NCBI GenBank assembly: GCA_022829145.1
Contig: CM040764.1
Location: forward strand, 7,487,144 to 7,551,143
Length of the DNA: 64,000 nucleotides
Direction: 5' to 3'
Source: Albula goreensis
Lineage: Eukaryota; Chordata; Actinopteri; Albuliformes; Albulidae
The position numbers were made by a program, and so were the translations under genes. The number at the start of each line of letters is the position of its first letter. Position 1 is the first letter of the stretch. This document shows positions 38,352-59,395 of this stretch, in pieces. The notes under the pieces were generated by a model. The model made no database searches. It worked only from the letters and a program-made list of their open reading frames with translations, and was not told where the DNA came from.

Positions 38352-38756
38352 GGATGTAGAACCTCTCACTTACTTCCTACAAGCAAAAGCCTCTTGGCAT
38401 AGTTTACACAGACATGCAGAGTCTGTGAACAATGTACACAGAACAGTGATTTATAATGTTGAATAACACATGAATATAAGTAAAATCATTATGTGTGTGA
38501 CCAAAACAAATAAGTAGTTCAGTACATGTATATGGATAATTCAGATTAATGACTTTTAGCGACAATTAATATAAATATCATATTTCATACATAAGTAATA
38601 CAAATTTCCATTACAGGACCTCTTAGAAACAGCATACGTTAATACAAATGACACAACGTGTAAGGTAAGAAATACAACTTCATGTGTTCAAATGAATTCA
38701 GTGCTTGCTGAGATACTTACAGCATTCTTGGGACTCAGGCTGTAGTTGTATCACTT

Positions 38757-41486
38757 TTAATGCTCAAAGAACATGAAATCCTAAACAGAGTAAAACATCA
38801 TTAGAGCAACAGATTTCAGGATCCATGTGTTAAAATTCAGATCATTTCAAAGGGGTTTGGCATGCTTTCAGACATCGCCGTAACTGGTTGTGACTGAAAA
38901 AAAAAATTGCTTTCAGGCTCAGTAGATCATATTACTTGTGTGAAAGTTATACATTTGCATGGCCTCCTCCCACTATTTTGCTTACAAATGTAGGAACACC
39001 TAATTTGCATCTTTCCATTTAACTCCTATCTGTGTCATCTTATAGGCTGAACTGTAGAACTGTATTGAGCCTTCAGCCAATCACAGAGTGACAAGGTTGT
39101 TCCCATACTCTTGCTTGGTTGTTCTTTTAGAGAACCACAGCATTCTTCAGTATTACTGCAAATGCACTCTTTGGTCACTTTCTGGTCAGCGCTGCTCTCA
39201 GCTCTTAAGAGCCTGTGTTCTCTGACATTGTAAGTAGTTCTGGTTAAGGGTGCCTGCTGAAACGGAGGTGAGGGCACAACCGCTGTCAGAAGTTCACTTA
39301 CGATGAGGAAGCAGGCTCCTAGCATGACAGCTTTGATTTTAACATCCAGGTCTGTGGGAAAGTTGATGCCGAAGCTGTCCGTGTCGATGCAGGCCCCTCT
39401 CGGGTTTCCAATCCAATGCCTGGTGATCCTGCCCACATCGGCCTCTCTCAAATCCTTGACCTGGAAGTGAAATTGCTCTCGGGAATTCTTGTAGAACCAC
39501 ACAATTTTCAGAAAATGTAATATTTGCACACTTCTAGCTGTCACACAGTCTATACTGCAGGCAGATAAATTCCTTTCGTGTTGCTTTTACTGCTCATTTG
39601 TAGCTGACAGCTAGTTTCAATGGGTGAGAATTTCACAAATCCAGTTTACAAAAACTTTTCAAACTTTACAAAATGTATTTTCATGTACTTTCTATACATT
39701 CCAATAGCTTATTTCATTCAAATTTGTCATATTGTCTTCATGTCTTGTGTTATACCTCAAAGTTGACATCAGAGAGGCATTTGGAGCAACAAAAAGTCCC
39801 CGCGATCTTTAAAACTGGCTCCCTCCTCTCATTCTGAATGGTGAATTTAGAAGTGACAGGGTGCCAGTTTTGAATGACGTATCCAATAGGGTTCCCAGGT
39901 GGAGACTGGACTTCCAACTGTATATACAAAGAGCGAAAACAGGAATAGGTCATCGTTCATTAGTCAAAATACATGGCAGAAACACTAATTAAGTCAGATG
40001 AAGTGCAGTACCTCCTGCAGGCAGCAGGGGCAGCAGCAGCAGCCGCACCTGAGCGGCCGCGTAATGGTGATGACCTCCTGGCCCAGGTTATCCTGAATGT
40101 GCAGGACGAAGGAACGCCTTGGCCCGCAGCACTGCCGGTTGCAGTGGCCGTTCTCCTCCTTGGCATAGTACACCTGCTGCCCGTCGCTGTTCTTGATGAT
40201 GTACTTGTTGGTTGCCTCAAAGTTTAGCAAAACTGTGGGGGTGAGTGACATCACTCATGTCAGAGGGACTCATTAGTCACTTGAATTAACACTGTCACAT
40301 GCTGATATCCAAAAAGGAATGGGTTTGCAGAATCGTGTAGTGGTTTGGTGCCCAGAATAACACATTTTTTAAAATCATAATTTCAACAAACCTGGTATTA
40401 AATTGATTCAGGCAGTGAGACTGAGCCCATGTTATTGTCATTACCTTCAGCGAGATCCACATGCTGGTTAACAAGCAGCTGATTTATCTTTAAAGAAACA
40501 GAAGTACATTTGTTTTAACACTGGTATAAGACAAAACACACCTCTAATTCAGTGTAAACACACACACACAATATCATGTTGGAACATTTCTGGGGCCTTT
40601 TCAAATGTAAACAGCAATGAGTAAAAAGTCAAATATAATCTGCAGAATATTTCTTCACATTTAAAGAAAACTCAGGTTGAATTTGGGTGTTTAGCTGACT
40701 AGCGAGGGCCATTCGGTGAGCAAACATTGAGTTTGGTGGCTGTTTTCCTGCACAGATAAATATTTCTGCGTGAGATTTGCTGTTGTACAGCCTAGAAGCC
40801 TGAAATACAATCTGTAGTTAGATGGCTGTAGATACGCACAGGTATACAAACAAGCCCCATTGCAACGAGGGAAAAGTCACCTGAGTCAGGTACTCTAGTC
40901 CCGGGGGACAGCCGGGAACCCTCTGTGGTGTGGGCATCATGGCGGGCACCTGTGGGGGCACGTAACCTGAGGGAGAGCCGAGCTGCTAGTCAAAATGTGA
41001 CACGCTCCTTCATATCCAGCCTTTTTCATCTCAAGGCACAGTTTGGAGCTTCATTTTGAAAGCCCATACTTGTGGCATAATGACACCAACAAAGGCACCA
41101 TAATACAAAGCAATTAGTGTATCACATATTTGAAAACCTATCTTTGAGTGATACCTGTGACAGGGATGCCTGTGTCCATTTTATAGCAGTGTGGAATGTC
41201 ATCACTGCAGTAAAGCAACTGTCATGTAACATGTAAAAGTACTGTTGCATTTTTCCTTCACGTACCTGGTGGCACGGGGACAGCAGAGGCTGCAGGAGGA
41301 GGGTAGGCCGCTTTCATGCCAGGCTGCTGGCTAATGGCATATTCTGCAGGAAAAAAATGGTTCTTTATACTCTACCTATGGATATGTGATAGCATACATG
41401 ATGAGGACTGTGTTAAATGCTTAGATTTTGGTTTGGTGATGGCAGGAGTGGGTTCCTTCCTGATTGAACCTACCTGGTGTTGCCAT
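38757..41486 (-). CDS. plscr: Phospholipid scramblase, tandem copy A (8 coding exons, 261 aa)
   Basis: Coding exons in transcript order: 41474-41486, 41266-41343, 40881-40966, 40445-40487, 40012-40232, 39756-39917, 39302-39460, 38757-38780. Every junction is GT-AG and the phases join to a 261-codon frame. The start is the ATG at 41484-41486 (context CCACCATGG); its exon begins after an acceptor at 41520-41521. Visible landmarks: proline-rich N-terminus (residues 1-59) with PPGY at 29-32; scramblase core from about 60; Cys cluster CGCCCCPCC at 136-144, the palmitoylation site in the family; Asp-rich loop DTDSFGINFPTD at 227-238, matching the family's calcium-binding segment; hydrophobic helix [10 protein letters not shown] running into DFMFFEH at the C-terminus. 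The family mediates calcium-dependent lipid movement between membrane leaflets; human PLSCR1 is also interferon-induced and nuclear. At 261 aa it is shorter than the roughly 320 aa of human PLSCR1. Exons 6-7 depart from family consensus more than copy B does. Orthology to a particular numbered PLSCR is not settled. Confidence 0.93.
39035..39301 (-). other. Read-through open frame after exon 7 of scramblase copy A (possible alternative C-terminus)
   Basis: The exon 7 frame stays open for 88 codons past its GTAAGT donor before a stop at 39035. The canonical splice goes instead to the small last exon at 38757-38780, which encodes the family's usual DFMFFE ending, so this stretch is normally intron. 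If the intron were retained, the protein would gain a Cys-containing tail (motif [12 protein letters not shown]) in place of DFMFFEH. I saw no AATAAA just beyond the stop. It is recorded because the same frame is open in copy B. Probably a by-product of shared ancestry rather than a coding exon. Confidence 0.3.
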
Positions 41487-41863
41487 GGTGGCGTCAGCAG
41501 GACGTTTTACTCAGCAAATCTAAAAAGTAATGCAGACAAACCGGGTATGTCATTTTCCATTTTCCACAGATAACATTCATTGTGTGATAGCATGACCAGA
41601 AAAGAATATTGACCCTATATTGCTGGATGTAGACAGAATTTTACCAGAGAAACAGAAAAATACGATTCAGAAATAAACACTAATAACACTAGATAAGGGG
41701 AAACCACAGAAGATATAACACAAGTTAGCCCTGTTCTATGCAAGGCAGTGTGAAGTTATCTGAAACTTGCATGTTAAGTTGAATTGTTTCAGTTAAGATG
41801 ATGTACACACTGAAAAGTCACAAATTCCTTGTGATGTAAATGTATAGCCTAGATATTATGAGA

Positions 41864-43399
41864 ACAAACCAGCTTTAGCATTAGAACAATATCATTTCCT
41901 TAAAAAATACATAGGCACTCTATTTACTGTACCCACTTCAAAAAACCCCCCACTTATCTGTTAATTATTGTTGCCTGTCAGTGCCAAGCGAGACATGTTC
42001 AACAACGGATAGACACTAGAATTTACAGTATGTGTCTTATTGATCAGTTAAGGCTAATTGTTGTGGAAACACAGGTTTATAATGTTAAATTATCTTCGAC
42101 TGAAGGCAATATCAGCAATACACTACCAGACACCGAATGTCACAAGTGACATCATCCATAATTTTAAGCAAGTCTGTCATTGGAAAATTTCACACACATT
42201 GGCACTGAAGAGAAACATCTCACCTGGTGAGCCCAGAACAGGGGAGGCATGATCTTTACCTTTAAATCTATCATTACTTTCAACCTGTTCCCATTTATCC
42301 TCTTTGATTAACAGCAAAACAAATTAATAGAGAAATCAACTCCAGCTGACTTACAAAAGGGTAAGTGGTTAACAATTTCATTTTGTGATAGAATTGCTCT
42401 TCTTGGCAAACTAGTGTTACATTTGTTCTTGATTTTTTTTTTAATCTGTCAGCAACTGTACTCTTCTCTCTCCAAACCTAAATAATATTGTTACCTTAAA
42501 AGGTACCTCAAAAATTCTCCAGTTTTTACTCATGAAACATCAGTTTTTGCGCTAATCTTTATTGTGCGTCGCACCCAAAGCTGATGTACTACACAGATAA
42601 AATGTCTTGTTTCATACAAGCGTATTTTCTAATTAAATGATAAGTACTTCTCTTTGTGTTCTGTAACACAAGAAAGCAACAAAGTGAAACAGTTGACAGA
42701 AAGCTTCGGGATTACTTCTCTGTTATAATTCATATAACTGCCATCCCAGTTATTCAATCTCATGTTGTAGCTTTCGCCATCGTACACATTTCAGCCTGTG
42801 CTGTTTCCTGTGCATTTAAATGGTAGAATCTTACAGATGAGGATCACAAATCATTATTCCCTTACTTCAGAAGGAGAATACTATTACTCATAAATTATAA
42901 CACTATGTGAGTATAACAACTGCTATAAATAACAAATGCTAGTGAAGAAACAAATGCTAGTGAAGAAAAATAATCCTACGACAAAATTAAACTAGAGACC
43001 ATTTAGTTCAGCTGGTGTTGATTAACGAAGCTAAACAGCACCTCAAATTGTGTAAAGCATCATGGTGTTTTCTTCTACTGTAAATTTAAATTGACATTTA
43101 TTTTGTTTTATTTCTGTGTTTATGTACTGTTTTTTCTGTTTTTGATGTAGGCTAAAGCACTTTGGTCAAATTCAACTTGGCTCATTGTTTTTAAAACAGT
43201 AAGGCATTATACAGTCCATTCACTTATTTCATGCTTACTTTAAACATAAAGTGCAACCATTCTTTACAAATAAAATCTTTTGACCACTTTTATCGAATAA
43301 AACTATCAACAACAATCGCCCAATAACCTAGATGGTGAGTAGGGAAGACTAGAACTGAATGATTAAATAATCTTGGCCCACCATATTAAGAGCAATGCA
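41864..43399. other. Upstream flank or first intron of scramblase copy A
   Basis: AT-rich unique sequence beyond the end of the duplicated unit, with the 18-bp duplication at 42931. No exon recognised. Confidence 0.5.
42931..42969 (+). repeat. 18-bp tandem duplication
   Basis: ACAAATGCTAGTGAAGAAA occurs twice in succession. Confidence 0.7.
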
Positions 43400-43885
43400 T
43401 TGTTCAGTTCAATAAATCCAGTTCTGCTCTCTTTCTCAGACTGCCATTATGAATATACCGCACACAGACAGCAATCAGTTCCTTCTTCAACAGGTCTTCG
43501 TCAGCTAAAATCGCACGGTAGGTGTCAGTCTGCTCACGCTTTGATTTTTCGGAGAAGCAGCAATGCTGCCATTTCAGAGAGATCATTTTGCACGTCAGGG
43601 CTCATCATTTTAGCATTACTTGGGAGCTCATTAAGGCGGTTTTTTCATCTCGGGGTCACGTGCACAAATCAGCTCAAATAATTCAAGGAAGATCCCTCTG
43701 TTCAGTGTATCCGCGTCTTCCCTGTGACCATGTGCAGCTATGCATTGCTTTGCACAGAATAGCAGGATGTCAGTTATAAATTTGACATGTGCCCGGTTTC
43801 TTGCAATAAAATCAGCAACTTGCTTGTGTTTGTCTTTTGTGACCTGCTGCATGATGTCACCTTTCCCAGCCCTTTCCATGTCCAT
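43400..43885 (-). pseudogene. DUF4371 / ZMYM-like (hAT-type) transposase relic
   Basis: The minus strand codes HKQVADFIARNRAHVKFITD and HREDADTLNRGIFLELFELI, then after a one-base frameshift near 43635 NELPSNAKMMSPDVQNDL. An in-frame stop follows, and after another frame change come YRAILADEDLLKKELIAVCV and RYIHNGSLRKRA. These match the DUF4371 region of domesticated and mobile hAT-like proteins (ZMYM family, TTF-type). Only about 160 codons remain, and the frame is broken at least twice. No terminal inverted repeats were located around it. Confidence 0.75.
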
Positions 43886-44417
43886 AAAACCCTAGTGCCT
43901 GGCCACAGCAGCAACATGAGCTTAACTTGTGTGGGAGTTTAAATTAAAGAAACTTATCACATAACTTCTTCCATGATTTACATCTTTTGTACTTTTATAT
44001 TTAATGCCTTACATTTATTTATAACACAAATCCTCAGCAGAAACAGAGTCTTTGGAGATAAGTTTTCTTACATTCCCATGGGAACAGGGCCTCTGTTCAC
44101 ATACTAATTGGATACACTGACCTACAGAAGCTTAGGGAGTGAGGGTCGATGATGTGGGTTTGGGAGCTTTTTGATCTCAGCAATTGAGTAGAGAGGACTG
44201 TCGTGGAAAATTACGACAAACGGTATATTGTTTTGTCAGATGTCAGGTGTAAATCATAAATCTAATTAATTATTGGCTCCGGGTGTAGCAGTTATTATGG
44301 GAACCAGAAGGGACGTAGAAATAACGGTGTATTGAAAAACAGTTGTAAAGCTGAAGGAGGGGTTTGAGTTTAAGCTATAAAAGAGAGTGCATTCAGAGAG
44401 TGCCTCGGTGAGTGATT

Positions 44418-44500
<83 letters not shown>

Positions 44501-47133
44501 TAAGAATGATTGGAGAGCACAACTGGGAGAGTGATTGGGAAATTACTGCTCTGTGCGCAGACCAGCCCGATTTACTTTATGCTCTTTGTTGCATATACAA
44601 TAAACCCACTTCCATCAGACTTCTCAGGTAAGGTTTGTTTATTTGGGAATTGGTGAACAAAGTGTGGAGGGGGCACTCAACCCATCTGGCCCAGGCTGAG
44701 ATTGTTTCTCCCACACTGCCCTCGTTTTTGATACAAAACTGATCAAGATGCCCCCAGTCTCTCAGTCCTGCTTGGCTAAATCAGTTTTCCTTGACATTAA
44801 TGCTTGAGTGGCGAAAAGGGTGTAGTCCAGTCAATCTGTGGTTTGACCCAGGGAAAATTTCAATAGTAATCATTCAAGGTTTTATGTTTTCCCTAGGGAC
44901 ATCCACATAACATATTAAAAGTATACCATTATGTACTTAGTGGATCAAGGTAAATTCAGGGGTTGAAATTTGGGGCCTTCATGTCACAGTGTCACACGAA
45001 GAACTGCGCATCTCTGCTTCTGAACACGCTATTTTTATCTAATTTATGTCTATACATTGGTTTTCTAGGCTGTTCTTTCACATACAACCACCAGATATGA
45101 CCTGTTCTGAATGTATATGTACACTTTGGGGGTACCCTTACCCCAAAATTACTTTTTTCTGAATCCAAACAAAGTCAATCAAACTACGTCATAAACCATT
45201 TATTATCAGTGAATTTTCTGCACGTACAAATTTGTCTTAGTATATTGTTTTTCCATGAAAACCATGATGCATGTCAGCACACAGACTGAAACCTTAAATG
45301 AGACCAAGCTTGAAACATGCTTTGACTGTAAGTCTGCATGTAATCTTCAGTCCATGTACTCAGGTTTTGACCATTCATTAACATGTTTATTTTGATATAA
45401 ATGGTGTCTTACTGTAAAACCTTTGTCAATATCATATCAGCATACTAGATGCATGCTCTGTGGAAGACCATGAATTTGTATAATAATTAATATTTTAATA
45501 TGTAATTCATATTTTGATGTGAATTTACATAAACTGTACCTTAGAAGTTGGATATGGTGCAGCAATCTATAACCATTCTTGTGGTAACATTTGAAAACAA
45601 ACACACAGCTGGACAGAAGAACATTGCAGTCTCAGGATGTTAAAGAAATTGATAACCATGACCACAAACACTGCTTAAGGAACCAGAAGTCATCTCCCTT
45701 ATAGTTGCCCTCTCACAATGTGTGCTTAGCCTCTAAAAGATACATGTATTTCCCCAACACCATATGCTAACAGATTATAATAGTCTTTTTATGTTTCACA
45801 TGCTCACTATTAGAACTATCAGAGAGTAATGGACCTTGAGGAAAAGTAGCTCAAACATCACTGGAGTCTCCTTTCCATTACAAATGTTTGTTGGAGCACG
45901 TAAGGTGTGGGGCATTATTCCCCTTTGTACTGCTTCATCATGCTTCAGTTCCTCTCATTGTGTATCTCTGACATTTTTAATGTGCCACATGAGAGGAAGG
46001 AAAATTAATTCCCCTTGTGTCGTAATTGATGACAGGGTGTAATATCAACTTGATGAAAAGGCAACTTCCCCCAAAGTTTGTGTACCTGATGTACATAAAA
46101 TTCCCATTAGCACTATCAGCACATTGCAAAGCTTGATCAATTAACAATACTCACACAACTAAATAGCACAGTGAATACAAAATACAAAGTTGGAAAGTTT
46201 GGAAAAGAGTGTTATTTATACATTTAATATCCTCTTCAGAGCACTTAAAAAGCCTTTATTAAGGTGTGAATTATGTGCAATGGATAATAGCAGTTATAAA
46301 ATATGATAAAGGGAGAGGGGGACTTTAAATAACCACATATATAATTTTTTTATTGTTTCTACTGTTTCATATGATGTTTTACATTAATGATTACACTGTC
46401 CTATAGGAGAAGTAATCAGTCATCTCCTAGGGAACAGGTTCTTGTATCATATTCAGATGACCCTTTAATATGTAATAATCTTTATGGTATATACTCTTTC
46501 CAAACACCATACATTTTCTTCAAACCAGTTTTTAGCATTCAGCCTGTTGAAACAGCCTGTATAGTCTGTGCATTTTATGGAGCAGTGAGCTGCACCCATT
46601 TAGATGGCCGTGGGATTACTGATCTGCCTTTCCTCTCTTTGTCACAGTAAATATGCTTTCAGCCAGCTAATGTTCCTGAAAGGAAGCTGGAGAATTCATT
46701 CCTACTTCATGTCATTGAAATGTGTCTCAGTCTTTAGGAGCCTAAATGGCTCTTTCCATCATCTCTCCTCTGGTTCCCATTGGTACTTTGACCTTGTTTC
46801 AGCCAGCAGAGTATATGGAGAGCATCAAACACAATATGCTTTTAAATTTGGGAGAGTGTACTGCTACCATGGGAAGCACTGTCCATTGCCAGCATCTGGA
46901 ATAAAATAGATTTTGTCTGTAATGGCAATTAAATGTATATAATGCACAATTATTTTATAGCTAAGCTGCATTGTTAAAATATATTGCGGTGCAGTCCAAA
47001 ACCCAAAAGTCTCCTCCAGCCTCTAGGCTGTGCTTTTAATTAATATGTGGCCTAACTGAAAGCAAGTGCTTGCACCTGGTTTGATGAGCAATCACCCTCA
47101 GGTGAGCCTGTCTGTAATAACGGAAGATTTGGC
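43886..47133. other. Probable intronic sequence of scramblase copy A
   Basis: Holds the 80-bp (GT)n. Otherwise AT-rich unique DNA without recognised genes. Confidence 0.45.
44420..44499 (+). repeat. (GT)n microsatellite, 80 bp perfect
   Basis: Uninterrupted GT repeat, the longest pure one in the window. It falls inside the inferred first intron of copy A. Confidence 0.95.
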
Positions 47134-47490
47134 AAAAAAAAAAAAAAAAAAATACAATTTCTCCTGGATTCAGTCCTTTTTTTAGTTGACTGGACTCGGG
47201 GCAAAACACAGCGTCCAGTTACACCCTCGCCAATTGTGCCGGTCATATCATTGAGCAGAAAAACTCCTGCCCTTTCCACTAGCTGTAAGGTGGCTGGGAA
47301 ATCATGCACTTTTGGCTGGTTTGCAGGTTCGCCAACCGTGGAAATATCAGAGGACTAGCTCTACCACTGGAACGACGGAAGATGTGCAGCCTCGGAGCTG
47401 CACTTGTTTTGGGCAAAGATGATGCAGAAACGGCTTTTGCATGCCTTGTGTCCGGCTGGTTGTCAATGGGGTTTTTTTTTTTTTTTTTTT
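47134..47490. repeat. A19 and T19 runs in opposite orientation
   Basis: A19 at 47134-47152 and T19 at 47472-47490 flank about 320 bp of higher-complexity sequence that I could not identify. The runs could pair, or could be tails of two oppositely oriented retro-inserts. Confidence 0.6.
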
Positions 47491-47669
47491 GAAAGAAGAA
47501 ATTTAACACGGAGCTCAGTTTAATTTTGAACAAATAAATGAAAGAAACAAAGCTACGAGTGAGAATACTAATCTCGCCAGCTCGCTGGGGTCACACACAT
47601 TTAAAGAATTGTGCACACTCAAAAAAGAAAAAAAGGTAGGCTGTAAATGAGACCGCGGATATTATTTGA

Positions 47670-47745
47670 TTTTTGGGCGTGCCAGCTGCCCCTTTGGGTG
47701 GCATAGGCACACCCTGGCACACCCGTGGCTACGCCGGTGATGCCA
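47670..47745 (-). mobile_element. Possible end of a DNA transposon
   Basis: On the minus strand CACCGGCGTAGCCACGGGTG is followed by TGCCAGGGTGTGCCTATGCC. This resembles the termini of fish hAT-like elements beginning CAGTGGCGTAGCCA. No matching inverted end was found, and any link to the transposase relic at 43400-43885 is unproven. Confidence 0.35.
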
Positions 47746-47879
47746 ACTCCTGCAACTGTATCCCAAACTAACTAAATGCTAAGACAAATATTTGATCCTA
47801 TTTGTACTTTATATTTTCTGTTTCTATTCTAACTTTAAAAACAATACACAAGTGCCACTCGGCTAAGACAAACACTTAC

Positions 47880-48060
47880 CTTTGTGAATTCGAGTTGCAC
47901 AATATGAAACGAGTTGGCACAGTGTCCTATGCGCTTTTCCGAGGACTGTCCTCTGACAACACTGCCCGTTTCCGAGTACGGCGGTGATGCCAAACACTGA
48001 ACATAGATTCCTCGAAGTGACGTAGTCTATGGAGGGAAGTCCGAAGTGCTGCTCGAGATT
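47880..48060 (-). promoter_or_regulatory. Candidate non-coding first exon and promoter of scramblase copy A
   Basis: On the minus strand a strong donor, CACAAAG|GTAAGTG, ends an exon-like CpG-rich stretch at 47880. Copy A's first coding exon begins with an acceptor at 41520-41521, so a non-coding upstream exon is required; this is the best one I found. About ten CpGs fall within 150 bp. Just upstream lie a CRE-like TGACGTAG (48018-48025, plus strand) and a palindromic TTCCTCGAA (48008-48016) that fits the STAT/GAS pattern TTCNNNGAA. The exon would carry a short upstream open frame of about 25 codons. Intron 1 would be about 6.4 kb. No transcript evidence; either motif could occur by chance. 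Confidence 0.45.
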
Positions 48061-48257
48061 TCTATTGTTTGAGTAGCTACAAACAAAATGGTGCAGAAAG
48101 AGGTTTGTGCATGAAAAGTGACAGTAAAATACCTGGGAAAAACAAGGTATTTGTTTGCTGCTACTGTCCCATTTTTACACAAGCAGTGTTTTGTATGTCA
48201 TTTTCATTCTGAAGTAAATCATGGGAAGTATGTGTGAATTGAGGTTGGTACTGTGAG

Positions 48258-48345
48258 TCAGTGGTTAGCACAGTGGTCTCACACCAAGAGGGAGTCCGGT
48301 TGAGTCCCACAACGGCCAGGTTCGCCCTATGTACAGTTCTCCCGA
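48258..48345 (+). mobile_element. tRNA-like fish interspersed repeat, degenerate
   Basis: Contains GTCAGTGGTTAGCACAGTGG (A-box-like), CTCACACCAAGAGGGAGTCC and GGTTGAGTCCCAC (B-box-like), then CTATGTACAGTTCTCCCG. This order resembles the widespread teleost repeat beginning GTGGTTAGCACTGT..CTCACAGCAAGAAGG. Recognised from memory of the family. Confidence 0.6.
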
Positions 48346-48979
48346 TTTTCTCAAGAAGGTCAGTCCATTCTTCAAATCTCTCTCTTTCTATTTGTACAGT
48401 ATATAAATAACCATTACATGACTGACATTACAGTTATGAAGGTGATGCTTTATTTTCATGTCGTCATTCACAAATTAAAATCAACCCTAAAATATCTAAA
48501 CGTTCACTGCAGTTGCACTGTGGAGTGAATTTTCTGTCAAATGAATCTGAAGAATCCCATTTTCATGCACTGTACAGTAATTCCTTGAGCCTGGGGAACA
48601 TTATTGTTTGCATTTACATTCAAAAGTAATGTAATACATTGTATATCACATAATTTGTGTTTTAATATGTACTCACTTTTGTTGAATCAGATTGTCATAA
48701 CCATATTGCTCAAAAAAATCTGAAACACATAAAGAAATGTATAACCATATAACAACATTCAATGTACCTCCTGTGTATTTTCTATCATCTTTGGCATTTT
48801 TCAGAACTATTAAATATGGACTATGTCTGAATAACTTTTTTACCTTTACTTTTATTAAATGAACATTACTTTGTATCAGAGTTGCACAGTTATACACAAT
48901 AATAATCAATCGCATACATTATGTTTACCAAAAGTCCAAAATTTATTGTTTGTCTGAATGTCTCTTTCCTGGGTTCCAT

Positions 48980-49405
48980 AAGTGGTCAATTTCTATCAAT
49001 ATCTATGTCATTTTTCTTGGACCAGTCTTAATGCAAATGTAAATCTCTCCATACTGTATAATATGTTGTTAACAATGTCCATCCATTGGGTCATTGTAGG
49101 AGGCTGTCAAGAAAGCCATCTCATTGTGATGGCTTTTTACTTGCAGATAACAGGAAATTCAACAAGTTTTTTCATAAGTATTCAACTCACCAGGCAGATC
49201 ACAGATGCAGGGAAGCAATAGACAGATCAAAACCCATTATCTCATTGATTGAGGTACCCACATCCTCCCCATATGGCTGGATTAAAGCACATGGCCATAA
49301 AACATGCACATGGTCGACCATTACCAGCCCATACTGCCTCCAGCAGGGGTGTGGCACATTGACTTTTATGTGCATTAATGTTAATTGATACGAAAATACA
49401 TTCAT
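48980..49405 (-). mobile_element. L1 (LINE-1) ORF2 C-terminal remnant
   Basis: The minus strand reads HPCWRQYGLVMVDHVHVLWP at about 49300-49370 and then KKAITMRWLS, PPTMTQWMDIV and MERFTFALRLVQEK at about 48990-49140. This matches the end of L1 ORF2: the Cys/His segment, then the 'KKAITRKWL..PPT..QWMDIV..ME..TF.LRL' block. Several stops interrupt it. It is the part that should follow the remnant at 52150-53700 on the same strand, so the two may be one copy split by later insertions. Confidence 0.7.
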
Positions 49406-49450
49406 GTTTACCCCTCCGTATTTGTTCTGTATAGTTGTCAGTTATTTCCC

Positions 49451-49835
49451 AACCTGGCAAACCTAGGACTATGGAATTGCCAGTCAGCAGCCCAGAAAGC
49501 TGGCTTCATCACAGCCTATGCCGAGATACAGCCATTTCAGTTCCTGGCTTTAACAGAGACCTGGATATCACCGCTTGGATGTTGTATTATGTTTGTTACT
49601 TTATTATAAATTGTATAAATTATTGTTTATAAATTTAATAGTTGGCTATGTAGGCCTACAATGTTTATTGGCTGTGCTATGTTTATTACTTTGACTGTTT
49701 CATAGACTTTATTTTTAGCTTTGAACTGCAGAAGCAATGCTCAAATGATGCAATTTCTTTCCTGTATTAATGCTGACTGGATGCACTCCTTGCACGCTGC
49801 TTTGAATAAAAGCGTCCGCAAAATGAATTAATACA
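49451..49835 (+). mobile_element. L2/CR1-type LINE, internally deleted (endonuclease piece joined to 3' tail)
   Basis: The plus strand encodes LGLWNCQSAAQKAGFITAY and then FQFLALTETWISP up to about 49573, a conserved stretch of the apurinic-type endonuclease of fish L2-like LINEs (the TETW motif). Directly afterwards comes AT-rich 3'-UTR-like sequence, and the copy ends with CTTTGAATAAAAGCGTCCGC at about 49799-49818, the L2-type tail. The rest of the endonuclease and the whole reverse transcriptase are missing, so the copy is dead. Confidence 0.7.
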
Positions 49836-49864
49836 AGTGTAAATGACTCTCTGCTATTGTTGTA

Positions 49865-50010
49865 TCCGTCTGCCATGCGCGCGCTGTGGATTGGCTGCAG
49901 GTGTAATTCGGGAGCTCGCGCCGGGCTCTTCAGTTGGCTGTTGGTAGCAGTGAGGAGACCGCTGAAGTACCACTCCAGGTCACCGCTGAAACTACCTTTC
50001 TTGTTTCAGG
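49865..50010. promoter_or_regulatory. CpG-rich promoter-like patch of unknown target
   Basis: About ten CpGs in 140 bp (GCGCGCGC, CTCGCGCCGGG) stand out from CpG-poor surroundings. A GGATTGGCTG stretch gives a CCAAT box on the minus strand. The plus strand has a pyrimidine tract and TTTCAG|GTATGA at 50004-50013, readable as either a splice donor or an acceptor. It sits between an L2 remnant and a (CA)n. No coding exon was recognised downstream on either strand. It could be the promoter of a non-coding RNA, an alternative scramblase promoter, or part of a mobile element. Confidence 0.35.
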
Positions 50011-50208
50011 TATGAACTGTCATATAATCACTCCCAAACGTTACAATGGTATTCTGTTATCATAACTGAAACGTTGAAATGCCTTATAAATGTCTGTTTA
50101 TGTTTTATGAATAATTTGTTATTAGCTAGCATCCTCGCGGTTGCGTTAGCCATTTGCTAGTTCGAGTAAAATGTAACATAGCTCGACTTCCATCATACTC
50201 AGGTAAAT

Positions 50209-50210
<2 letters not shown>

Positions 50211-50253
<43 letters not shown>

Positions 50254-50270
50254 AATATATGTATATATAT
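50211..50270 (+). repeat. (CA)n followed by (TA)n microsatellite
   Basis: CA core 50211-50243, then an AT-rich ATATATAT tail to about 50270. Confidence 0.9.
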
Positions 50271-50879
50271 TTGATACATTTGTAAGCATAAACAAATAAT
50301 AGGTGCATATTTTGTAGCAGTTTGAGCTACACTGAATTTGGTCCTTCGAACGAGTGACCGCTTAATGATTCAGCTGCAGAGTGTTACGTCACCATACTAT
50401 CAGTGACAGGTCCTTCGGATGTGATGTACAATGTAAATAAGGAAGCAAATGTAGAGTGAATCATTTCTATCAGATGTCTGTAGTTGCAAATGTGATATGC
50501 TTGAATTGAAGTGTAATAATTATTTTTAAATTTAAGATGATAATAATGTAGGAAGATAGAATAATATATTTGGATATATTTCGAGATTTAAATGATAGTG
50601 TTCCTGTTAGTTTGTGATTGTCTATGAGAAGTCATTACACTCAGTGTGCATTTAGTAATCACTTTGGTCATGGAGTTACCAAATTCCTCCAGCAAAATTC
50701 CCCCCACAGCCTCGAATTAGTAGAGCTAATTTGATTCTTACAGATATTCCCCCATGTCTCATCGGTAATTTCAATTGGCAGCTTTTTTTTTTTTTTTTGT
50801 TAATTACAAGAAAAACAAATACCAAAAACCTAACACAAATAAGCCATAGAATAGTAATGAAAACATACACATAACATAT

Positions 50880-51078
50880 GGGGCAGCCTATAGCCTAGTG
50901 GCTAAGGTAAATGACTGGGACCCCTGAGGTTGGTGGTTCAAGTCCCAGTCCAGCCACAGCAAGAACACCATTGCTGTTGGGCCCCTGAGCAAGGCCCCCA
51001 TTGTTCCCAGCCTAATCAACTGTAAGTTGCTTTGGATAAAAGCATCAGCTAAATGACAGTAATGTAATGTAACATAAT
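50880..51078 (+). mobile_element. tRNA-derived SINE, near full length
   Basis: The head has pol III promoter boxes: A box TAGCCTAGTGGCTAAGG (50891-50907) and B box GGTTCAAGTCC (50935-50945). The body includes TTGGGCCCCTGAGCAAGGCC. The tail GCTTTGGATAAAAGCATCAG (51029-51048) is the L2-type 3' end used by the partner LINE, and it finishes in ATGTA repeats. A short TAACATA on both sides may be a target-site duplication. The best-preserved mobile element in the window. Confidence 0.85.
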
Positions 51079-52149
51079 ATTTGAAGGGGAAAAGGAAGGA
51101 AAAAAACACAAATATATATATAATACATATAATCAAAAGGTTTAAGTCAAGGCTTACATACAAGGAACAAGACCACAGAAGCCCTTCTCCCATTCCTTTC
51201 TTCAAAAACTGAGAACCATTTTACATTCCATTACTTGTGTTACATTTTTCATTACATCATTGACCATTATACCTTCTAGTGCAATTGTCAAAACTTGTGA
51301 TATACATATTAACATTAAATATAATTCTGCCCTACAGGCACCTGGACACAGCCAGCCAGACATGCGCCACCATTCCCAGATGGCCAGCCCTGCACAGGCA
51401 CAGACACCCCCGGCCAGAGCCACCAGCACACACCCCAGCCGCACAACCACTACACCACTGGGAATCACAGAACCGGAGGACAGGCCAGAACAGAGCAAAG
51501 GGAGGTGCCAACACTCAAGTTCACTGCAGCTTTCTATGCCCCCAGCAAGTGCCATCATTGTCACCATAAAGGTTGGTAGTCCACAACTTGACCAAAGTTC
51601 TGATGTGCAGTGAGGAAGAAGAAACAGGATGGGACACACAGTACCCCCCTAAAGTCTCATGAGCACAGTGCAGTCCTAGGCATTCCTGAAGTACCCATCA
51701 GAGGTACAACATCCCTGAATATTCTCCATGGCTAGTCATGCAGGCATAGCTCAGTCTAGATCTCTGGAGCAACCAGTCTCCTTTCTCATTGGGCCCCCCC
51801 AAGACCCTGTGTCTCAGGGATAGGCACCAGCTACATGGCCGCACATGGACTGTCAGCCCTGCCGGAGGGCACCCCCATCCACACCAGACCAACCAACCAA
51901 CCTGTAGTCAGCTGATTATATTTTTTGTATGGAGCAAAGGAATCCGTACTTTTTAGTAAAGATGTCATGTGACATTATTTTTCCATTTTCATCTATTAAA
52001 TCGTTCAAAAGTAAATGTCATGATAACATACTTGCTGCCATAGAAATGCTTGTTTTTTTATTATGATATTCAAGTTAAATCTAATTATTTATTGTAAAAT
52101 GTCTTCAGTATGACCTAGGGGGTGGTACTGGGAGCTCAACCAAGCCTAT
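51079..52149. other. Unassigned sequence between SINE and L1 remnant
   Basis: A 117-codon plus-strand frame (51260-51613) follows an acceptor-like CTGCCCTACAG at about 51331-51341. It is rich in Pro, Ser, Thr and Gln (AQAQTPPARATSTHPSRTTT) and resembles nothing I know. Probably part of an unnamed mobile element rather than a gene, given its retroelement surroundings. Confidence 0.3.
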
Positions 52150-53700
52150 ATGTACACCTTCAGAAAGACAGATACATCAGGGACTTCCTCAGTAAATATT
52201 GGGATATGGGATGGTTTTAAACAAATAAATTGAAAGAGCTGGCATTTAAATATGTGATGAGATATTCTTAGTAGTCTGTGAGAGAACCAATCCAGGTTGT
52301 GATACAGATTTTGAATCACTGATGCCTTCAATGATAAAATGAATGCTTTTATATTTAATAGTTTTAACCTACCATTCTCATAGTTATTGTATAAATATTT
52401 CCTTTTTTATTTTTTCTGGTTTGTTATTCCATATGAATTTAAATATTGTTCATATAGTTTGAAAGCAGAATCTGATAGTGAGGGTATGGTCATGAGTAAG
52501 TATGTAAATTGAGACACAATTAAAGAATTGACCAGTTCAACTTTCACGAATGGTGTTAGGTGTTGCCATCTCCAGGGTAGCAGAATTTTATCTATTTTAC
52601 TAAACTTTAATTTGACATTTGTATTCACGAGTTCATTCATTTCCTTTGGTATATGAAATGTAAGGACATTCACCGGCCCATCTGCCCATTGCATTGGAAA
52701 GATGCAAGGCAAATTAAACAATGTATCTTTTAAGGAACCTTAGCAGGTTGCACTTTTCATAATTAGATTTTAAGCCTGAGTAGTTTGAGAAACTGGCTCT
52801 GAAGAGAGGATAATTGAGGATTCAATGGGAAATTTGTATCATTTGCATACATTGATACTTCAGATTTCAGTCCTTTAATTTTCAGTCCTGTTATATTATC
52901 ATTGGCTCTGATTTTTATACCCAGTATTTTTATTGCTATTATATATAGATATGGAGATAATGTGCATCCTTCTTTAACCCCTCTAAACAGCTGTATACAT
53001 CTGAAAAATATCCATTGTTAATACTTTTGACATATATATTTATAATCTATCATCTTTTTTTAAAGACCTCCTTAATATTTGGTAAAAAATTTCATGATAT
53101 ATGAATACAATATGTCTTCCTTGAAGGAAGTATTTTAAATAAGAATGATTCAGTTTGCCCAAAGCATTGTAAAAAAGTTTTTAAGACATATATATTTATA
53201 ATCTATCATCTTTTTTAAAAAGACCTCTTAATATCTTAATATTTGCTGGTGTTTTATCTGTGTTTTATTTAAAAATTAAACCAGGCTTTTTTTTGTAGTT
53301 TTATCATTCAAATATTCTATAATTTATTATTTCACCATTCAGGTCATTTGTTTGATCATTAATTTCTTTTAGTGTTTTCTCTTTGTTTATAAGAGGAGAA
53401 TTTAATAGCATGTCCTCTGAATGCCATTGAAAAAGAGTTAACATTGGATTTGCAGATCCAATGTTATAGTGAAACAATTGAGTTATAAACTCTTTTGTTT
53501 GTGTTACAAATATGTTGTCCTATAAAAGACTTTGGTTAAACTTCAAATACTGCAGACCCATAGGAGTTTAATTTAGTGCCAGGTGTAAAGTGATAAGATG
53601 GTGATCTTTGACCATGTCTTATGGAAGCTTCAGCACGTTTTGCATGAAATTCCTGACAAGCCTTTGTGGCAACCACAGATCCTCCTTATTGGTATTGATG
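52150..53700 (-). mobile_element. L1 (LINE-1) ORF2 remnant: end of endonuclease, reverse transcriptase, downstream part
   Basis: Reading the minus strand with frame changes gives the order expected of fish L1 ORF2. An endonuclease end (KDHHLITLHLALN) and linker (GLQYLKFNQSLL) lie at about 53530-53690. The RT motif EGCTLSPYLYIIAIKIL lies at about 52922-52975, the active-site box YANDT at about 52835-52849, and the post-RT region (KIDKILLPWRWQHLTPFVKV, LVNSLIVSQFTYLLMTIPSL) at about 52407-52620. A C-terminal segment continues to about 52150. Stops and frameshifts are frequent and the catalytic YADD box is YAND, so it is dead. Confidence 0.8.
53029..53246 (+). repeat. Direct repeat of about 50 bp, 156 bp apart, inside the L1 remnant
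   Basis: GACATATATATTTATAATCT then ATCATCTTTTTT..AAAGACCTC..TTAATATTTG starts at 53029 and again at 53185, with few changes. A local duplication that postdates the L1 insertion. Confidence 0.7.
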
Positions 53701-53812
53701 ACAAAAATCTGTTATCGGTTAGGCCCTGATTGAAATATCATGTGTTTTGGTGACACTGAGTAAATTCAAGGTGATTATACCCTTAAGTACAATATTCATA
53801 TTTTCATCAGTA

Positions 53813-53818
53813 TTTATT
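53813..53818 (-). terminator. Candidate poly(A) signal AATAAA for scramblase copy B
   Basis: On the minus strand AATAAA lies about 430 nt past the copy B stop codon (54250-54252), a reasonable 3' UTR length. It is a six-base motif with no transcript support. For copy A I found no AATAAA near its stop; an ATTAAA overlaps the stop codon itself (38756-38761) and another lies at about 37783-37788. Confidence 0.35.
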
Positions 53819-54249
53819 CATACAGTAGACCTACTAGAGTACTGACAGTGTAATAAGTTCAACAATACAATGTTCATAAAAAAAAGAAAGAATATATAAA
53901 TCTAAATCAAAGATAATATTCACATATGTCAGGAGTTCTCTGAACGTTACATATTTAAAGTTGAATAATGTCCATAGAACATAGCATTTCCAGTTATATA
54001 CTGTGAAGATTGATTCCCACAGGTAAGCCTTAATTATAAGCAGAGGGAACAGCCCGTATCCCCCAGCTGCGTGGACCTGGAACGAGGCAAACACAAAATT
54101 CTGATTTAAACTCCAAGGGACCTCTTAAGAACAGCATATGCTATATAAATGACACCATGAAAACTAAGTAATACAACTTCATGTGATCAAATGAATTCAG
54201 TGCTTGCTGAGGTACTTACAGTGTCCTGGTGGCTCAGGCTATAGTCATA

Positions 54250-57200
54250 TCACTTTGAATGCTCAAAGAACATGAAATCCTAAACAGAGTAAAACATCAT
54301 TAGAGCAACAGATTTCAGGATCCATGTGTTAAAATTCAGATCATTTCAAAGGGGTTTGGCATGCTTTCAGACATCGCCGTAACTGGTTGTGACTGGTGTT
54401 GTGGTCATGTGATGGCATACTTTACTGACTTATTGGTCTTTCAGTGAGAATTGGTGACATGAGTATGGGGATAACCATGTCACTCTGTGACAGACTGAAG
54501 TCTCTGTAAAATAATATTACAGGCGAGCAGAACCATGCAGGAGAAGGAGGTCTCTCATTTGCCAATATAAGGCAGCCAAGAACTAACCAAGAGTTTGATC
54601 ATTGCTCGTGTGATGCTGGAATTTCTTAAGTCACCCCTATTTCACATAAATAAAATGGCAATGTTAGACAAGCAATATTTATGTAATATTTTTACTTCTG
54701 AAAATCCAAAAAGATTGACATGAGCGAAAAATACCTGTTCTCTATGTTTTAATGGTTCTTTGCTACAACGTCTTCTTGCTACAGTTATTCCTGTCATCTT
54801 ATCGATTGTGTGTCCGCTTCTCATTCATACAAAAATGCAGACACATAATTACCTTTCCCAAAAATTGCTTACAGGCTCAGTAAATCATATTACTTGTGTG
54901 AAAGTTATACATTCGCATGGCCTTCTCCCACTATTTTGCTTACAAATGTAGGAATACCTAATTTGCATCTTTCCATTTTAACTCCTATCTGTGTCATCTT
55001 ATAGACTGAACTGTAGAACTGTATTGAGCTTTCAGCCAATCACAGAGTGACAAGGTTGTTCCCATACTCTTGCTTTGTCTTGCATCCTTGCTTTGTCTTA
55101 GTTGTTCTTTAAGAGAACCACAGCATTCTTCAGTATTACTGCAAATGCACTCTTTGGTCACTTTCTGGTCAGCGCTGCTCTCAGCTCTTAAGAGCCTGTG
55201 TTCTCTGACATTGTAAGTAGTTCTGGTTAAGGGTGCCTGCTGAAACGGAGGTGAGGGCACAACCGCTGTCAGAAGTGCACTTACGATGAGGAAGCAGGCT
55301 CCTAGCATGACAGCTTTGATTTTAACATCCAAGTCCATGGGAAAGTTGATGCCAAAGTTGTCCGCATCGGTGTAGGCCTCTCTCAGTACACCCATCCACT
55401 GTTTGGAGATCCTGCCGACATTAGCCGTCTCAGACAAATCCTTGACCTGGAAGGGAAAACATGTAGGGCTCGGATATAAAATGCGCTTGTGGGATAAACA
55501 ACCAAACAGAAATGGACTGTTCCAGGCAGGTTTGAATTTCAAATGCATAACAACCTGATTTTAGATACCATTTAATGCTTTGTGAATGGAACAATGTCAA
55601 TTACTGCTTCTTTACATAAAAAGAACACCATTACTTTAAAGTTAACTGGCATACAAACTTCATTAGAGCTAATCTTTAATGTTTAATTTACGTAACACTA
55701 ACAGTCTTTAATAATATATTCCAATAGTTTATTTCATTCATTTGTCGTATTGTCTTCATGTCTTGTGTTATACCTCAAAGTTGACATCAGAGCAGCATTT
55801 GCAGCTACAAAAAGGCCCCTCGATCTTTAAAACTGGCTCCCTCCTCTCATTCTGAATGGTGAATTTAGGAAGGAAAGGGTGCCAGTTTTGAATGACGTAT
55901 CCAATAGGGTTGCCAGGTGGAGACTGGACTTCCAACTGTATATACAAAGAGCGAAAACAGGAATAGGTCATCGTTCATTAGTGACACAAAATACATGGCA
56001 GAAACACGAATACAAATAGTTAAGGCAATGTCTCACCCAAGATGTAACATCTCCTTAAAAATAGTAAACATCCCCCTCTGGAACATTTATAATTAGAAAA
56101 AAAGCTTTTCAACGGTTTCTTTGTGACAACAATAGTTCAAGCTCACAATTCTGTCCACAGAGCTGTAAGAAAATGAAGGGGATTCATTCTTCTTTCTTTA
56201 TAATTGTGCAACTTAACTCCAGTGCACCACCAAGTCCTTTCATTTGTCATGACACAGATGGAAGGATTTAAGTCAGATGAAGTGCAGTACCTCCTGCAGG
56301 CAGCAGGGGCAGCAGCAATAGCCGCACCTGAGCGGCCGCGTAATGGTGATGACCTCCTGGCCCAGGTTGTCCTGAATGTGCAGGACGAAGGAACGGTTGG
56401 GCCCACAGCACTGCCGGTTGCAGCAGTCGTTCTCCTCCTTTGCATAGTACACCTGCTGCCCGACGCTGTTCTTGATGATGTACCTGTTGTTCGTCTCCCA
56501 GCCAAGCACAACTGTGGGGGTGCGTGACATCACTCATGTCAGAGGGACTCATCAGTCACTTGAATTAACACTGTCACATGCTGATCGTGTAGTGGTTTGG
56601 TGCCCAGAATAACACATTTTTTAAAATCATAATTTCAACAAACCTGGTATTAAATTCATTCAGGCAGTGAGACTGAGCCCATGTTATTGTCATTACCTTC
56701 AGCGAGCTCCACTTGCTGATGAACAAGCAGCTGGTTAATCTGTGAGAAACGGAAGTACATTTGTTTTAACACTGGTATAAGACAATAACACACCTCTAAT
56801 TCAGTGTGAACACACACACACACAATATCATGTTGGGACTCTTCATATCCATTTCCACTTCTCAGAGGGCTGAACTCTCAATCTAGCTATTCTAACAAGC
56901 TGGGAACACACCCACTCCTGTCTGTTTTTATGATGTGGTGTTTCACACTCAAACTTCCTGTTTTGATGGAATTGCTTGCAAAGAATTTCCATTTCTGGGG
57001 CCTTTTTAAATGTAAACAGCAATGAGTAAAAAGTCAAATATAATCTGCAGAATATTTCTTAACATTTAAAGAAAACTCAGGTTGAATTTGGGTGTTTAGC
57101 TGACTAGCGAGGGCCATTCGGTGAGCAAACATTGAGTTTGGTGGCTGTTTTCCTGCACAGATAAATATTTCTGCGTGAGATTTGCTGTTGTACAGCCTAG

Positions 57201-59395
57201 AAGCCTGAAATACAATCTGTAGTTAGATGGCTGTAGATACGCACAGGTATACAAACAAGCCCCATTGCAACGAGGGAAAAGTCACCTGAGTCAGGTACTC
57301 TAGTCCCGGGGGACAGCCGGGAACCCTCTGTGGTGTGGGCATCATGGCGGGCACCTGTGGGGGCACGTAACCTGAGGGAGAGCCGAGCTGCTAGTCAAAA
57401 TGTGACACGCTCCTTCATATCCAGCCTTTTTCATCTCAAGGCACAGTTTGGAGCTTCATTTTGAAAGCCCATACTTGTGGCATAATGACACCAACAAAGG
57501 CACCATAATACAAAGCAATTAGTGTATCACATATTTGAAAACCCATCTTTGTGTGATACCTGTGACAGGGATGCCTGTGTCCATTTTATAGCAGTGTGGA
57601 ATGTCATCACTGCAGTAAAGCAACTTTCGTGTTGCATGTAAAAGTACTGTTGCATTTTTCTTTCACGTACCTGGTGGCACGGGGACAGCAGAGGCTGCAG
57701 GAGGAGGGTAGGCCGCTTTCATGCCAGGCTGCTGGCTAATGGCATATTCTGCAGGAAAAAAATGGTTCTTTATACTCTACCTATGGATATGTGATAGCAT
57801 ACATGATGAGGACTGTGTTAAAAACTTAGATTTTAGTTTCCCTGATGTAGGGAAAACATTTAAATCGTAATTCTAAGAACAGGAATAATTTTTGTGAGGA
57901 CTCATTTTATATTTACATTGTGTGTGTGTGTGTGTGTGTGTGTGTGCACGCGCGCGTCTGTATAGTTCATCTTCTCACTACACAAATTTGGATGGAATGA
58001 GCTGAAACCCTATGGCTACCAAGGCAAAAAAAACAACAAATTAGGCCAAAAGCTAAAGATCACGAGTCACAATATTTTTTTAATTATCTGCACAATGGAC
58101 AGAGAAAGACACTGTGCTCAGCAAATTTTTGTGAAAAGAAAACAATAGTTGTTTACCATGAGAGATTACATTGTGATATTTCTTCAAAAGAAAGTGTGTT
58201 TCAGTGTAAATCAAAGTAATGAACCTTTTAGAATAAGGGGTTGATTTTGTTTTAACAGTTTGAGACGTTTTATATGATAATGTTATTATTAGAATACCTT
58301 TATAATACCTAGCCCGATCCTTTCCAGCTCTTCAACTCCTCTATATGTTGATTAGCAGAACTTGTTCATTAACATTGCAAATACTCCAATTAATTGCAGC
58401 AGCTTTGTAACACTGTTACTGTCTCCAAGAGTCAGTAGTATCCTTTTCTGTGGGAATGCTGATCTTATTCATTAGTTCAAAGAACATCCCCAAAATTAGA
58501 TTGTGCTTAAGCTCAACTTTAAGGGGCTATCATATGGAACTGATGATAATCAAGATGAAAATGACAATGCAAAGAATTTCAACAAACCACAATAATAACG
58601 TGAAAATATAGCCCTGAGCACCGACTCTTGGTGCATATAAAACATTAAGGGCCAGAATTCTGTGTTGGTGAAGGGAGACATGAGTGGTAGGTTTACCACT
58701 TCATCCAAATAAGTGGAACAAAGTATATTTTTCACTGTACCTTACCATTGTGCAATATTTGAATGTAATTTCTCTCTTGCGTGATCATGAATGTTGAAAA
58801 GTGAATTTTGGTTGATGAGCAAAGAACATTGCTTACAAGTTACAAGTTGACATTATATTACAACAGAGACGGTGAGGTTATCTAAACCCTGACCTCAAAT
58901 TCTTATCTAATCAAATCTTTTCGAGCCCTTTAATTACTCAATATGTTTTAATCTCAGCAGAATTTGTTCATTAGCATAGTTAATCATACTAGGCTTTTGC
59001 TACACTGTTACTTTGTCCAGGAGTCAACATTATCCTTATCTGTACCGCTGTTAAACAATTTAAATGCACTTAACACTTATCTGGATAAGTGTATCCTCTT
59101 AGTGACTGGAAGGTAATGCCCACTGCATTCATTGAAACAATGAATCAACAACTGAAATGGGGATTCAGTGTCCATGATGAGTAATCCACAAATCACAAGT
59201 AAGCATTCTCCCTTACTCTGGGACTTCATGGTAGTGAAATCTGACTCATCATTAAACCGTGACTGTACAGCATGGATACGCTGTTCTATGAACGATCCAT
59301 TAGTGAAACTGAACTCTACAGGTGGACTACAGTTTCCCAGTTTGGTGATGGCAGGAGTGGGTTCCTTCCTGATTGAACCTACCTGGTGTTGCCAT
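54250..59395 (-). CDS. plscr: Phospholipid scramblase, tandem copy B (8 coding exons, 264 aa)
   Basis: Coding exons in transcript order: 59383-59395, 57671-57748, 57286-57371, 56697-56739, 56291-56511, 55774-55935, 55285-55446, 54250-54279. All introns are GT-AG and the sum is 795 nt including the stop. The ATG at 59393-59395 has context CCACTATGG, one base weaker than copy A. Exons 1-3 code for the same residues as A. Family landmarks: PPGY at 29-32, CGYCCCPCC at 136-144 (Tyr where A has Cys138), [12 protein letters not shown] at 228-239 (closer to the family's calcium loop than in A), [10 protein letters not shown] at 212-221 (position of the nuclear-import segment of PLSCR1), then [10 protein letters not shown] and DFMFFEHSK. 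Exon 7 has one more codon than in A, and the last exon has two more because the TAA of A is TCA here. B looks like the canonical copy. It lies about 12.8 kb upstream of A in transcript direction, same strand, head to tail. Confidence 0.93.
54994..55284 (-). other. Read-through open frame after exon 7 of scramblase copy B (possible alternative C-terminus)
   Basis: This is the counterpart of the copy A read-through frame: 96 codons open past the GTAAGT donor. It is nearly identical to A, but a 24-nt insertion (near 55070-55095, resembling a local duplication of a TTGCTTTGTCTT unit) adds eight codons without breaking the frame. The tail keeps [12 protein letters not shown]. Canonical splicing skips it to reach the last exon at 54250-54279. 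Confidence 0.3.
57919..57956 (+). repeat. (TG)n then CG alternating tract in intron 1 of copy B
   Basis: TG core 57919-57946 runs straight into CACGCGCGCG, giving 38 bp of alternating purine-pyrimidine sequence. Absent from copy A. Confidence 0.9.
58315..59055 (+). repeat. Diverged tandem repeat, period about 600 bp, in intron 1 of scramblase copy B
   Basis: Segments at about 58318-58465 and 58915-59055 share CTxTATATGTT-like, AGCAGAACTTGTTCATTA, ACACTGTTACT and a GAGTCA..TATCCTT..TCTGT ending. The copies differ at perhaps a fifth to a quarter of positions, so the duplication is old. It lies inside the block that copy A lacks. Confidence 0.55.

Follow-up and report, generated by a model that had tools for sequence, protein, structure and literature searches.

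In snake venom toxin paralogues, exons evolve faster than introns, a pattern attributed mainly to positive selection. In the L and M opsin genes of gibbons, exon divergence at both synonymous and nonsynonymous sites exceeds that of introns; nonsynonymous divergence is lower than, or not significantly above, synonymous divergence, and gene conversion occurs mostly in introns (PMC3213168). For the bovine CEACAM32/CEACAM1 pair, the leader exon and introns show conversion and the domain-coding exon does not, with selection proposed as the filter (PMC7042247). In the copepod Tigriopus, islands of high divergence persist in the GOT1p1/GOT1p2 genes despite conversion, yielding a mosaic pair (PMC3728101).

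Here, we describe a tandem pair of scramblase genes, A and B, from the fish Albula goreensis. By its sequence, the pair matches the opsin/CEACAM32 type of pattern, here in a scramblase family. A/B resembles the L/M opsins in being a tandem pair whose exon synonymous and nonsynonymous divergence both exceed intron divergence, CEACAM32 in the homogenisation of introns and the N-terminal exons (1-3) but not of domain exons, and GOT1p1/GOT1p2 in being a mosaic pair with divergence islands. The systems also differ. The opsin case draws on five species, GENECONV, trees and polymorphism, whereas A/B comes from one genome, and in A/B, unlike the opsins, one copy carries nearly all of the protein change (PMC3213168); CEACAM32 belongs to an immunoglobulin-like receptor family in which several paralogues convert one another (PMC7042247); and GOT1p1/GOT1p2 is an enzyme gene pair documented across populations (PMC3728101). 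Venom toxins and A/B share exons that are more diverged than introns, but dN/dS is below 1 overall in A/B. Literature searches on plscr gene conversion and on positive selection in fish scramblases, covering titles and the starts of abstracts, with most subscription journals outside their scope, returned nothing about this pair, and none was found that joined exons and introns, gene conversion, an immune gene, tandem duplicates and fish.

A tandem pair within a scramblase cluster

The window is the whole stretch of DNA analysed, 64,000 nucleotides in length, and positions refer to its first base. The original prediction placed the pair at 38757..59395, and both ends were correct: position 38757 is the final base of the A stop codon (exon 8), and the coding sequence of B starts, in exon 1, at 59395.

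38757..41486, minus strand: copy A, scramblase gene, 261 amino acids; eight coding exons; Pfam Scramblase 272.6 bits
41474-41486, 41266-41343, 40881-40966, 40445-40487, minus strand: copy A coding exons 1-4
40012-40232, 39756-39917, 39302-39460, 38757-38780, minus strand: copy A coding exons 5-8
54250..59395, minus strand: copy B, scramblase gene, 264 amino acids; eight coding exons; Pfam Scramblase 315.7 bits
59383-59395, 57671-57748, 57286-57371, 56697-56739, minus strand: copy B coding exons 1-4
56291-56511, 55774-55935, 55285-55446, 54250-54279, minus strand: copy B coding exons 5-8

The Scramblase domain (PF03803) is full-length in both copies (profile positions 1-220 of 221), and both scores exceed the curated cut-off of 25.4. 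Reading frames are intact, with no stops, and every internal splice border is GT-AG. A solved-structure search with B gave seven matches, with E no lower than 0.38 and no scramblase among the names of the matched structures. The original prediction had allowed for a mis-assembly of haplotypes. We consider an assembly artefact or a duplicated haplotype extremely unlikely, since A and B lie on the same contig with 12.8 kb between the genes, similarity between the two units stops at both sides of each, frames are coherent, and intron lengths are unequal (130 vs 1634, 94 vs 355 and 521 vs 1005, A vs B), with extra sequence in introns 1, 3, 5 and 7 of B.

The cluster comprises at least three genes (A, B and C). 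Copy C is an older tandem copy, whose exons 5-7 are open and lie 3.6-5.1 kb past the window end.

L009:3701-5235 (C24:7554701-7556217), minus strand: copy C exons 5-7; exons 5 and 6 at 66-77% DNA identity to A/B

Relative to C, divergence of A/B follows the usual order, with exons 5 and 6 alignable at the DNA level and introns unalignable; exon 7 of C has no DNA match to A/B and is 51-64% identical at the protein level. Further scramblase exons occur at one locus each on contigs C6, C2 and C13. On the same contig as the pair, 5.8 Mb away, a distant scramblase-like exon (L015, C24:13303000-13309500) has 32-36% protein identity.

Two other features of the region were observed. Open frames at 52407-53017 (minus strand), between A and B, resemble by eye what we take to be a broken LINE-type reverse transcriptase. 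The 10-mer GAAACAGAAA lies at matching places upstream of the A and B start codons (41649-41658 and 59560-59569); we presume it to be an interferon-response-like (IRF-like) motif. The window contains 11 IRF-like 10-mer sites, with 4.5 expected from shuffles.

Exons 4-7 are more diverged than introns

Exons 4-7 of A and B differ at 65/585 sites, more than four times the divergence of the introns (32/1255 aligned sites in introns 3-7; Fisher p=2.9e-13). The original prediction had made this claim from counts taken by eye, and recounting reproduced them: 0/177 nt in exons 1-3, 7/299 in intron 2, 3/185 in intron 4, and the values for exons 4 and 5 listed below.

40445..40487, minus strand: A exon 4, spared island; 6/43 differences from B 56697-56739
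40012..40232, minus strand: A exon 5, spared island; 22/221 differences (7 synonymous, 15 nonsynonymous)
39756..39917, minus strand: A exon 6; 11/162 differences (10 nonsynonymous, in two small islands, and 1 synonymous)
39302..39460, minus strand: A exon 7, most diverged island; 26/159 differences plus one codon lost in A
38781..39301, minus strand: A intron 7, homogenised; 12/512 aligned differences; B has ~460 extra bases

The predicted total for exon 6, with about 10 amino-acid-changing differences, agrees with the recount, as does that for exon 7 (about 26/159 plus one codon) under the best gap placement; MAFFT's first placement gives 28. We computed dN, dS and omega with the best placement, and the run-permutation, mask-rotation, gap, fourfold-site, proximity-test and stop-simulation figures below carry the less good one. 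In A, the final bases ahead of the donor site are identical to B in both exon 5 (27 bases) and exon 7 (29 bases). For intron 7, low divergence had been noted at the start only (~5/264), and it extends to the entire intron.

All alignable introns together differ at 42/1685 sites (2.5%). Intron 6 contributes 10/78 differences, mainly at the ragged edges of a non-aligning core, and without it the figure is 32/1607 (2.0%). The noncoding DNA upstream of exon 1 is intermediate, with 17/308 differences after trimming of a ragged end (30/364 as first aligned). No shift in the transition/transversion ratio was seen between exons and introns (p=0.51).

Silent sites and the 3' noncoding stretch diverge together

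The excess in exons 4-7 extends to silent sites. Nonsynonymous sites differ at 45.5/461 (dN 0.11) and synonymous sites at 19.5/124, or 16% (dS 0.18), giving a pairwise dN/dS of 0.60. A noncoding stretch beyond the coding region provides a control.

38616..38756, minus strand: A noncoding stretch past the stop codon, spared; 21/138 (15%) differences from B

With the synonymous count rounded to 20/124 for these comparisons, synonymous divergence is similar to that of the 3' noncoding stretch (p=0.87), and both exceed introns 3-7 (p=3e-9 and p=4e-9, respectively). The original prediction had staked its case on intron divergence staying below exon synonymous divergence, and the values are 2.5% and 16%. 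Third positions of codons with identical amino acids agree: 14/156 differ in exons 4-7, compared to 36/1666 intron sites (p=4e-5), with 0/55 in exons 1-3. Fourfold sites differ at 7/59 (p=0.001 against introns). Since silent sites are not intron-like, the odd part of the pair is the introns and 5' exons, rather than exons 4-7. The synonymous and 3' noncoding divergence also speaks strongly against a scenario with introns as the clock and positive selection as the only cause.

Low intron divergence could in principle reflect constraint. No intron matches (E<=0.01) beyond A and B were found in seven loci, including those of the other paralogues, and the rest of the window; long-term intron constraint is therefore not indicated, and we rejected constrained introns as an explanation.

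A mosaic of identity tracts

The similarity between A and B is distributed in tracts, among them a long homogenised block.

40585..41434, minus strand: A homogenised block, including most of introns 1 and 3, intron 2 and exons 2-3; 98.6% identity over 850 bases to B 56990-57839

Within it, a run of 482 bases (A 40657-41138) is identical between the copies. The five longest identity runs (482, 165, 161, 138 and 103 bases) reach the floor of a permutation test (p=2e-4), and when the exon mask was rotated along the alignment, the observed exon count was reached in 49/2973 rotations. Silent differences cluster beyond chance, both across all silent sites (p=1e-4, the floor) and in introns alone (p=0.001). 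Synonymous differences were not significantly nearer to nonsynonymous ones than chance (p=0.10). Identical runs span exon-intron borders where the proteins agree, i.e., at exons 1-3, the ends of exons 5 and 7, and the common coding part of exon 8. Tracts are unequal in divergence, which suggests several events of different age.

Some intron segments are present in one copy or alignable in neither.

56012..56267, minus strand: B intron 5 stretch missing from A

A genome search with 55990-56280, a piece of B intron 5, matched only itself, in a search that skips very common words; this favours loss from A over insertion of a repeat in B. The middle of intron 6 (A 39477-39690, 214 bases; B 55463-55711, 249 bases) does not align, although both flanks do, and its alignment is no better than that of the best shuffles. 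Two repeats were also observed: a stretch of intron 7 in both copies (39067-39113 and 54458-54504) recurs in reverse at 55031-55072, in the extra part of B intron 7 (83% over 42-47 bases), and the extra part of B intron 1 contains two imperfect direct copies (58317-58451 and 58915-59043; 70%).

Protein change is concentrated in copy A

We performed branch analysis on exons 5-7 (182 codons), with C and the paralogues on C6, C2 and C13 as outgroups; these are near saturation for polarising changes, with third positions 46-51% apart. The A branch has a dN of 0.096, compared with 0.008 for the B branch, meaning that protein changes fall almost wholly on A; symmetric ageing of the two proteins is thereby ruled out. 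In dS, the two branches do not differ significantly (p=0.26). Third-position distances to the four outgroup paralogues are 0.475-0.508 for A and 0.462-0.505 for B, with B slightly nearer in all four. A single omega for all branches is rejected (p=1e-5), with estimates of 0.69 for A, 0.17 for B and 0.12 for the background; omega=1 on A is not rejected (p=0.37).

Positive selection on A is possible. A dN/dS above 1 was not found over the gene (0.60 pairwise, exons 4-7) or on the A branch; exon 6 alone gives 2.71, a value resting on one synonymous difference. Our own implementation of the branch-site test, applied to the A branch over 182 codons, gives p=0.005, with omega 6 for 17% of codons. When the 12 codons with at least two A-B differences are dropped, p becomes 1 (170 codons) and omega on A falls to 0.37, although the filter also costs power. 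The potential of multinucleotide changes to mislead tests of the branch-site type is a subject of published work.

Other features bear on whether A has drifted freely. Of 17 small gaps in alignable blocks, exons 4-7 contain just one, which preserves the frame; the other 16, some at ragged edges, are elsewhere. If gaps accompanied substitutions in these exons as often as they do elsewhere (16 gaps, 94 substitutions), ~11 would be expected in them. In simulations of neutral drift, the probability of no stop is 0.12-0.22, such that a stop-free A is not significant by itself.

Possible mechanisms

Four points are direct observations: exons 4-7 diverge more than introns, silent sites share in this contrast, differences are clustered, and protein change is one-sided. 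The explanation we favor, and consider probable, is that A and B are an older tandem pair in which conversion homogenised introns and 5' exons, sparing exons 4-7 and the 3' end. The divergence of ~15-18% seen at synonymous sites in exons 4-7 and in the noncoding DNA past the stop codon would reflect the true age of the pair. Introns, the N-terminal exons (1-3) and the ends of some exons would have been transferred repeatedly between the copies by interlocus gene conversion, making the identical runs, and the converted parts now differ by ~0-5%. Conversions over the variable parts of exons 4-7 would have been lost by selection that keeps the A and B proteins apart; we infer that the exons were spared in this way, the simplest filter being selection to maintain two distinct proteins. 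B would be near the ancestral sequence and under strong constraint, with A having taken nearly all amino-acid changes. Of the two explanations in the original prediction, the one combining conversion with diversifying selection is thus partly upheld: homogenised introns with exon differences kept is the best-supported reading, and diversifying selection is not established, given a dN/dS of 0.60, an omega on A of 0.69 and a branch-site signal carried by 12 multi-hit codons. Several observations sit less well with conversion and spared exons: (i) exon 6 has one synonymous difference in 33.7 sites, with ~5 expected at the rate of exons 4-7; (ii) the 3' noncoding stretch is spared though beyond direct selection on the protein; (iii) the upstream noncoding DNA is intermediate; (iv) islands kept for their protein sequence predict closeness of synonymous to nonsynonymous differences, which the proximity test did not detect at significance; and (v) the middle of intron 6 is unalignable. 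The conversion reading draws on one genome rather than on trees across species. A bolder version, tentative and in our judgment improbable as a whole, has A as a neofunctionalised scramblase with positive selection on short exon islands, exon 7 above all, while conversion from B refreshes the rest; a pathogen-driven arms race would then play out in islands ranging in size from a few codons to several tens.

The other explanation originally proposed, import of exon tracts from another paralogue, would make the duplication recent (~2%), with exons 4-7 and the 3' end of A overwritten by a more diverged paralogue that is now lost or unassembled. It would account for protein differences lying nearly all on A and for islands bounded by exons. 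Bearing on the donor is a single search, for Scramblase domains across the 932-Mb genome (208 contigs): all 19 candidates were scored, and none is closer to A than B is. One of these 19 matches is weak, and the others are three exons from each of six loci (A, B, C and those on C6, C2 and C13). At the 59 differing sites in exons 5-7, outgroups match B at 32-33 and A at 9-13; since they side with B over A, none of the C, C6, C2 and C13 paralogues would be the donor. At third positions, A and B lie at similar distances from the four other paralogues. With a dS of only 0.18, the introns of a donor ought to be alignable, and exon-bounded tracts would need a further cause. Import would call for a larger number of events, with multiple independent tracts that stop close to exon borders, and for a donor that has since disappeared; we regard it as unlikely. 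Even less likely, in our view, is a weaker form of the conversion reading that needs only strictly one-way transfer from A to B under purifying selection on B, by which exon tracts are purged, intron tracts pass, and A drifts without adaptive change. The omega values of the two branches fit such drift, with neutrality of A not rejected, and a stop-free A is compatible with the simulations. It is harder to reconcile with the scarcity of small gaps in exons 4-7 (one, in frame, compared with 16 outside them) and with A's retention of its internal splice borders and 272.6-bit domain match, and strict directionality is an added assumption. In a further scenario, the duplication is recent, introns give its true age, and adaptive change in the A protein has been very rapid; support comes from the 10 nonsynonymous and one synonymous differences of exon 6 and from the branch-site result. 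Synonymous and 3' noncoding divergence six to eight times that of introns counts against this scenario, and the branch-site signal disappears without the multi-hit codons, though their removal also removes power. We consider it very unlikely.

Implications

The A/B pair offers a clean example from nature of introns and exons whose apparent ages are six- to eightfold apart within one gene pair, and dating its duplication by introns or by whole-gene identity would mislead. The diverged stretch of exon 7 corresponds, by human landmarks, to what we assume are the nuclear-localisation and calcium-binding segments. More broadly, the spared islands point to residues where the two scramblases may differ in function. 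Human PLSCR1, a member of the same protein family, restricts a coronavirus (PMC11486371), and in light of this the spared islands are candidates for functional tests.
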